Below are positions 41,266-41,642 of a DNA stretch of 49,039 nucleotides, piece by piece. The DNA is taken from NCBI GenBank assembly GCA_027491075.1, contig JAIXWX010000012.1:1-49039 (forward strand), written 5' to 3'. The notes below the pieces were generated by a model, which was given only the letters and a program-made list of their open reading frames with translations, made no database searches and was not told where the DNA came from. How positions within the stretch are numbered: the stretch's first letter is position 1; every line of letters begins with the position of its first letter. The position numbers and the translations under genes were made by a program. The DNA comes from Flavobacteriales bacterium. Its GTDB lineage: Bacteria > Bacteroidota > Bacteroidia > Flavobacteriales_D > Sanyastnellaceae.

Positions 41266-41642
41266 GTGCTTGGTTTTATTCGTTTGATTTTTATTCGTGG
41301 TAAAGGTGGCTATTTTTTCTCAATCATGAAATTGATTGATTTTATAATTTAATAGATAAAATCTATAATATGTTTTTTGTGAATTTTGAATCTTTTTAGG
41401 TTAATTTTGGTCGTAATGAGATTAAAATAATCGCATAAGTAAATAATGGCCTAATAAAATTCACGGCTCTAGCTCCAATGAGATATGTTTAAGCATAGCC
41501 TTTATATCGACATATCAAAAATTCAGATCGTGATTTCAAGTTTCAGAAGTATGCGGAATATGAGATTTTTTATTTCGGAAAAAAAGTAATTTGTAAATAG
41601 GTTACAATCCACCTGCATTTTTTTACACTTAAACAAAAAATT
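41266..41642. other. Divergent katG/rmuC regulatory region
   Basis: A 377-base, strongly AT-rich stretch between divergent genes. Apart from the OxyR-like box (41352-41366) and a weaker similar sequence beside it (41331-41345), I see no clear promoter pair, hairpin or open frame of note. Confidence 0.7.
41352..41366. promoter_or_regulatory. Predicted OxyR-binding site upstream of katG
   Basis: ATAGATAAAATCTAT fits every specified position of the OxyR core motif ATAGntnnnanCTAT. A poorer copy, ATTGATTGATTTTAT at 41331-41345, lies six bases away; OxyR normally contacts two such blocks about seven bases apart. The site is 87-101 bases upstream of the katG ATG, and an oxyR gene is present at 7619-8563. 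Confidence 0.6.

Follow-up and report, generated by a model that had tools for sequence, protein, structure and literature searches.

Is the short palindrome that precedes katG in this Flavobacteriales genome an operator of OxyR and, if so, how would such an operator work? In the window, by which we mean the whole stretch of 49,039 nucleotides that was analysed, the predicted target gene katG (39031-41265, minus strand) encodes a bifunctional catalase-peroxidase (TIGR00198, 1179 bits for a cut-off of 770) and is faced across the intergenic region by rmuC, which starts at 41643 on the plus strand. A motif scan of the window showed that ATAGATAAAATCTAT, at 41352-41366, matches all 10 defined positions of the 15-bp OxyR dyad ATAG-n7-CTAT. 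Read on the katG strand (minus), this site, hereafter dyad A, is ATAGATTTTATCTAT and agrees at 10/10 positions with ATAGnTnnnAnCTAT; its near edge lies 87 bases from the A of the katG ATG. A second dyad, dyad B (41331-41345, minus strand, ATAAAATCAATCAAT), matches at 7/10 positions and is located 21 bp nearer to katG. An earlier note on this DNA had described a motif-perfect OxyR core site 87 bases upstream of katG with a weaker block alongside, and this description is borne out at each point, the weaker block being dyad B. Dyad A is the first part of an operator that is conserved among relatives, and is predicted to be the anchor site of an OxyR tetramer; dyad B is the predicted site of the second dimer in the compact (oxidised) register.

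The katG palindrome against chance

A perfect match to the motif is, alone, weak evidence, and it is the place and the context of the match that count. The 3.02-Mb genome to which the window belongs contains 4 exact matches to the motif and 8 to the same pattern read backwards; as the reversed pattern is the commoner of the two, we rejected the exact motif as evidence in itself. The other three exact matches lie inside open reading frames (408, 749 and 180 aa). When up to two mismatches were allowed, 22 matches were listed in the window compared with 26 expected by chance, the other 21 having two mismatches each. The last 250 bases upstream of katG were therefore compared in 110 loci, corresponding to the window and 109 relatives (29 relatives with loci, 41 of 60 having had a match, and the 80 best of at least 589 confirmed loci). 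A dyad of at least 9/10 was present in 33 of these 110 upstream regions, whereas the reversed pattern reached this level in 1 and shuffled sequences in 1.5 on average (30 rounds).

A sequence profile of 47 positions was built from the katG operators of 40 relatives, the window being left out. Searched against the genome of the window, with 150 of the 1221 first-look candidates scored, this profile gave its top match at 41326-41367 (22.1 bits, E = 7.3e-4); the next match had 14.2 bits (E = 0.25). Of 25 katG loci not used for training, six were matched, namely the window and 5 of 22 OxyR-positive relatives, one of the latter (L029) in the opposite orientation. Only two matches (L018 and L111) were obtained in the 45 katG loci of genomes without OxyR, and the katG loci of L044 and L066, which belong to neither OxyR group, gave no profile match.

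Association with OxyR and with peroxide-defence genes

The window encodes an OxyR-type LysR regulator (7619-8563, minus strand), located 31 kb from katG, with LysR helix-turn-helix and substrate domains (PF00126, PF03466). Its redox cysteines C198 and C207 correspond to C199 and C208 of the E. coli protein, and both cysteines are present in all 73 aligned OxyR proteins. The top-scoring models of this protein are two OxyR models, both below their cut-offs: against the OxyR equivalog of NCBIfam, PRK11151, which is the best of 49 families, it scores 215.7 bits and does not reach the cut-off of 329, and we therefore refer to it as OxyR-type rather than as that equivalog. It also matches solved OxyR chains, including 3ho7 (E = 1.2e-43), which is a P. 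gingivalis OxyR chain (PMC7999485). A second OxyR, which has the redox cysteine pair and is 51% identical to the window copy, is encoded on contig 31 (G000:C31:38790-39695). In a tree that was used only for placing the OxyR copies of this genome, the OxyR of a genome of the same genus (G002) groups with the contig-31 copy (100/99), not with the window copy. Both oxyR loci of the genome were inspected, and no strong site was found beside either gene. The earlier note had argued from the presence of oxyR in the same window; the gene is indeed there, but the argument is thin given this distance, the second oxyR on another contig and the lack of a strong site at either.

Across relatives, the motif was observed to occur with OxyR. 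Among the 62 genomes with OxyR, the window's own included, 29 have a match of at least 9/10 before katG, compared with 3 of the 43 without (Fisher, 6e-6; Mann-Whitney, 1.4e-10). As the genomes are related, these P values overstate independence; some genomes are incomplete, and the operators were sought using the known motif. OxyR was scored as present at a best E of 1e-35 or lower, and L095 (5e-31) was thus counted as lacking it; the test left out L055, L095 and L112, with upstream regions of less than 100 bases, and L044 and L066, which have no OxyR score. The reversed pattern also distinguished genomes with and without OxyR (Mann-Whitney, 0.002), and the G+C content of the upstream regions is 34% in the former and 38% in the latter; the difference seen with the reversed pattern is due to base composition and is much smaller than that obtained with the motif itself. 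The box, whose conservation before katG the earlier note had made the touchstone of its proposal, is hence kept in many relatives and tracks OxyR.

With an operator definition that was set after the pattern had been seen, an operator is present in 40 of 62 relatives with OxyR, and absent from the remaining 22, compared with 3 of 45 without OxyR. The best upstream dyad does not exceed 7/10 in 12 of the 62 OxyR genomes. By the same definition, 30 of the 46 non-divergent katG loci have an operator, the window's own included. The motif was found at 9/10 or better despite no detected OxyR in L082, L091 and L111, as was the profile in L018 and L111; the genome of L018 is 85% complete and that of L111 is a 2.6-Mb MAG, and missing sequence likely explains the undetected OxyR in these two.

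The same profile was run against 243 kb of sequence, made up of 63 oxyR loci and the oxyR-oxyS stretch of E. coli. Twenty-four matches at E <= 0.1 were obtained. They fall in 23 oxyR loci, always no more than 90 bases upstream of the gene, and none lies in the E. coli sequence. Twenty-one of these 23 loci are outside the training set; the other two, L143 and L168, are training operators approached from the opposite flank. Of 73 aligned oxyR loci, the search covered 63; the other ten were eight that contain training operators, plus L155 and L200, to which this ground for exclusion does not apply. Among three further oxyR loci, L155 has a match directly upstream of oxyR, and L200 and L201 have none.

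In the 23 matched loci, the gene facing oxyR is dps (8 loci), a peroxiredoxin gene (3), katG (4) or another gene or none (8); the facing partner is dps in L129 and a peroxiredoxin in L140. The partner is present without a profile match in 1 of 9 loci for dps, 6 of 10 for katG and 2 of 5 for peroxiredoxin. The dps genes were identified by PF00210 and by the look of their sequences (one scores best against Dps models, below the cut-offs), and the peroxiredoxin genes by AhpC-TSA, or by AhpC models below the cut-offs. The scan of other peroxide genes that had been proposed as a check is therefore positive in part of the relatives, with the element lying between the two genes in 8 of the 9 oxyR-dps pairs and in 3 of the 5 oxyR-peroxiredoxin pairs searched. 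The motif thus accompanies OxyR and peroxide-defence genes, although not universally.

Within the fetched flanks, oxyR is divergent from and adjacent to katG in 17 of the 62 OxyR-positive relatives. In 11 of these 17 loci (L016, L019, L031, L032, L041, L060, L061, L062, L083, L084 and L109), dyad A begins at most one base from where the start codon of oxyR ends, so that the 5' leader of oxyR would lie within the operator. In the window, rmuC faces katG and oxyR is elsewhere, and the operator is still there.

Spacing of the dyads and placement on the promoter

The operator of the relatives can be written ATAGATnnnATCTAT-n6-ATAnAAnnnATCAATnnnATnTAT, with dyad A at 0-14, dyad B at 21-35 and a third dyad, C, at 30-44; B and C have the half-site 30-35 in common. 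To define the spacings, the best dyad (at least 9/10) was taken as anchor in 28 relatives, the window excluded, and a partner was counted when it reached at least 7/10; these 28 loci were picked by their best dyad only, whereas the 40 training operators were picked by site score. The two highest peaks are both on the katG side: +21 (12/28, mean 5.39), compared with 1/28 at +22, and +30 (12/28, mean 5.54), compared with 0/28 at +31. A minor peak is seen at +17 (4/28). On the other side of the anchor, partners were found at -21 in 0/28 and at -30 in 4/28; partners at -30 are expected because C, not A, is the best dyad in some loci, and it is so in several relatives (10/10 in L015 and L078, 9/10 in L019 and L070). 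Since one half-site can hardly serve B and C together, we infer that the second dimer has a choice between two positions on the DNA. Strong operators with all three dyads are present in, for example, L060, L109 and L090 (Emticicia aquatica).

In the window, the position of dyad C (41322-41336, minus strand, ATCAATTTCATGATT) is 30 bp nearer to katG than dyad A, and dyads B and C share the half-site 41331-41336. The quality of the elements is uneven: dyad A is perfect, B is fair (7/10), C is weak (5/10), and the -7 box described below is weak as well (4/6).

The -7 element of Bacteroidota housekeeping promoters is TANNTTTGY (PMC12632263). In 18 of the 40 relatives' katG operators, a perfect TAnnTTTG (6/6) lies at offset 58 or 59; the reversed motif was perfect at none of the offsets 45-109 in these operators. 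On the oxyR side, 8 of 23 operators have a 6/6 box at 58 or 59, 2 of these 8 being training sites. In the same 23 operators the reversed motif reaches 6/6 in none and 5/6 in 12, and weaker -7 matches therefore say little. The window has a degenerate -7 element (CACCTTTA, 41301-41308, minus strand), which matches TAnnTTTG at 4/6 positions and lies at the expected, conserved offset of 58. TTTG is a form of the -33 element: it is present at offset 35 in 9 of the 40 katG operators and at no other offset, out of 45, in more than 2. With TTTG at 35 and the -7 box at 58 or 59, the -33 region overlaps the centre of dyad C and the end of dyad B. The likely -33 element position of the window is 41328-41331 (minus strand), which reads TTTC where relatives have TTTG.

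In several relatives (L043, L070, L092, L106 and L107), the best -7-like box is located at +47 from dyad A, not at +58/59. This is at odds with a simple promoter geometry, and the box at +47 is perhaps part of a second one.

When scanned likewise, the E. coli oxyR-oxyS region has three dyads: one close to oxyR (8/10) and, at 22 and 31 bp from it towards oxyS, a pair with a common half-site that score 8/10 and 7/10, respectively. Upstream of E. coli ahpC, two dyads of 8/10 are spaced by 22 bp and a third reaches 6/10; upstream of E. coli katG, no clean version of the three-dyad layout is seen. In oxyR-oxyS, the inverted repeats are termed IR1, IR2 and IR3, IR1 and IR2 serving activation and IR3, over the -35 box, repression (Oliver et al. 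2016, PMC5002191). According to Toledano et al. 1994, as cited in the same paper, oxidised OxyR contacts four adjacent grooves and reduced OxyR two separated pairs. The Bacteroidota element resembles oxyR-oxyS in its ATAG-n7-CTAT units, in its fixed dyad next to oxyR, and in its two overlapping dyads towards the activated gene with one half-site in common, in the same order and polarity. The outer dyad lies over the upstream promoter element in oxyR-oxyS and in relatives of the window: this third, oxyS-type dyad is present at +30 in 12 of 28 relatives, and its position in the window scores only 5/10. However, the spacings in Bacteroidota are 21 and 30 bp, one base pair shorter than the 22 and 31 bp of E. 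coli; the targets are katG, dps or peroxiredoxin genes rather than a small RNA; the promoter is of the -33/-7 rather than the -35/-10 type; and, in 11 of the 17 divergent oxyR-katG loci, dyad A extends as far as the start codon of oxyR. An E. coli-type second dyad at 22 bp is absent, the window and relatives having it at 21 bp, and the operator of the window is thus a variant, not of the E. coli type. The prediction of the earlier note that the proteobacterial motif is conserved in Bacteroidota consequently holds for the box, which is conserved in many relatives, but not for the distances between the dyads.

LysR-type operators with alternative second sites, those of OxyR, IlvY and CynR, are classified as 'Group two' in PMC5002191. 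These operators have overlapping activation and repression sites that are mutually exclusive, as the present element would; figures of the paper deal with Gammaproteobacteria, whereas the element described here occurs mostly in Bacteroidota. OxyR is given as an activator in several Bacteroidota (PMC8115020), and catalase and peroxidases are named in the OxyR response of Bacteroides and Porphyromonas (PMC12632263), regulons with which the present case shares the phylum, the type of regulator and the catalase and peroxidases of the response. The open full-text literature, including the accessible parts of PMC7999485, PMC12632263 and PMC8115020, yielded no description of a Bacteroidota OxyR operator sequence; subscription papers are mostly outside this literature, and an earlier description is possible.

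A predicted operator with two registers

Taken together, these data indicate that the short palindrome before katG is very probably a docking site of OxyR. From the sequence and from the likeness to oxyR-oxyS, we consider it probable that it belongs to a katG operator with a compact register (A+B, active) and an extended register (A+C, reduced). The binding of OxyR, the assignment of the registers to redox states and the direction of regulation are here transferred from the E. coli system. In this model, one OxyR dimer would be anchored on dyad A. The second dimer of reduced OxyR would occupy dyad C, at a distance of 30 bp, and cover the -33 element, and katG would be held down. Upon oxidation by peroxide, the second dimer would be displaced by a single half-site, onto dyad B at 21 bp from A; the -33 element would be freed, OxyR would be placed just upstream of RNA polymerase, and katG would be switched on. 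Where oxyR is divergent, with dyad A often on its start codon, OxyR would also limit its own synthesis. As A and B are present in the window and C is weak, activation by oxidised OxyR is the firmer part of our prediction for the katG gene of the window, and little repression is expected from reduced OxyR.

With more reserve, we lean towards a broader proposal, in which this is a widespread Bacteroidota OxyR operator whose DNA would encode both redox registers (A+C at 30 bp, reduced; A+B at 21 bp, oxidised). The site used in the reduced state would contain the -33 element, and the anchor site would, in many species, contain the start codon of oxyR. A single module would be reused before katG, dps or peroxiredoxin genes, and would stay with katG where oxyR is elsewhere.

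The switch to dyad C is the part of the model that a plainer arrangement would dispense with, namely a two-dyad activator site in which A and B are bound when OxyR is oxidised and in which the signal at C reflects the -33 element and AT-richness. The weak dyad C of the window would agree with such a site, as would E. coli ahpC, in which the pair at 22 bp reaches 8/10 and the third dyad only 6/10, and the report that reduced OxyR affects most E. coli target genes little (PMC8115020). However, the +30 peak equals the +21 peak and is sharp, without any partner at +31, and C is the best dyad in several relatives, at 10/10 in two of them; we therefore regard the plain two-dyad site as unlikely.

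The identity of the regulator can be questioned as well, as a T-N11-A palindrome is common to LysR-type regulators; further LysR-like genes are present in many relatives, and one more short match in the genome of the window. That the palindrome serves another LysR protein, or a Fur/PerR-type repressor sharing the motif, is nevertheless quite improbable in view of the co-occurrence of the motif with OxyR (29/62 compared with 3/43), of the layout, which is the same as that of the E. coli oxyR-oxyS operator, and of the position of the element, which adjoins oxyR in 23 of 63 loci, 11 of them facing dps or a peroxiredoxin gene and 4 facing katG. The lowest probability of all is left to a chance AT-rich palindrome within an AT-rich intergenic region: the genome does hold fewer exact matches than reversed ones (4 and 8), but 33 of 110 katG upstream regions reach at least 9/10, compared with 1 for the reversed pattern and an average of 1.5 for shuffles, and the site of the window is the best match in its genome of a profile that excludes it.

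An OxyR operator with two registers would provide a comparative case for the idea of a shifting dimer, the three-dyad logic of E. coli oxyRS being found one base pair shorter, on another type of promoter and before other genes. A defined operator also makes the prediction of OxyR regulons possible in Bacteroidota. In the genome of the window, a wider regulon was considered and rejected, as the profile gave no second confident site. This genome-wide search is the one that covered the upstream regions of the genes for MauG peroxidases (5 matches, 4 above the cut-off) and AhpC-TSA proteins (15 matches, 11 above the cut-off). The genome has no dps gene usable for the test, its sole PF00210 match reading by eye as a ferritin. 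One very weak profile match (G000:C28:37694-37736, L235; E = 7.25, not significant genome-wide) lies directly upstream of a gene of the AhpC-TSA family whose product resembles, on visual inspection, a thiol peroxidase. Finally, a polyhydroxyalkanoate-depolymerase-like esterase with a T9SS sorting tail, which fits a Bacteroidota origin, is encoded at positions 42936-44051 of the window (minus strand); its score does not reach the curated cut-off.
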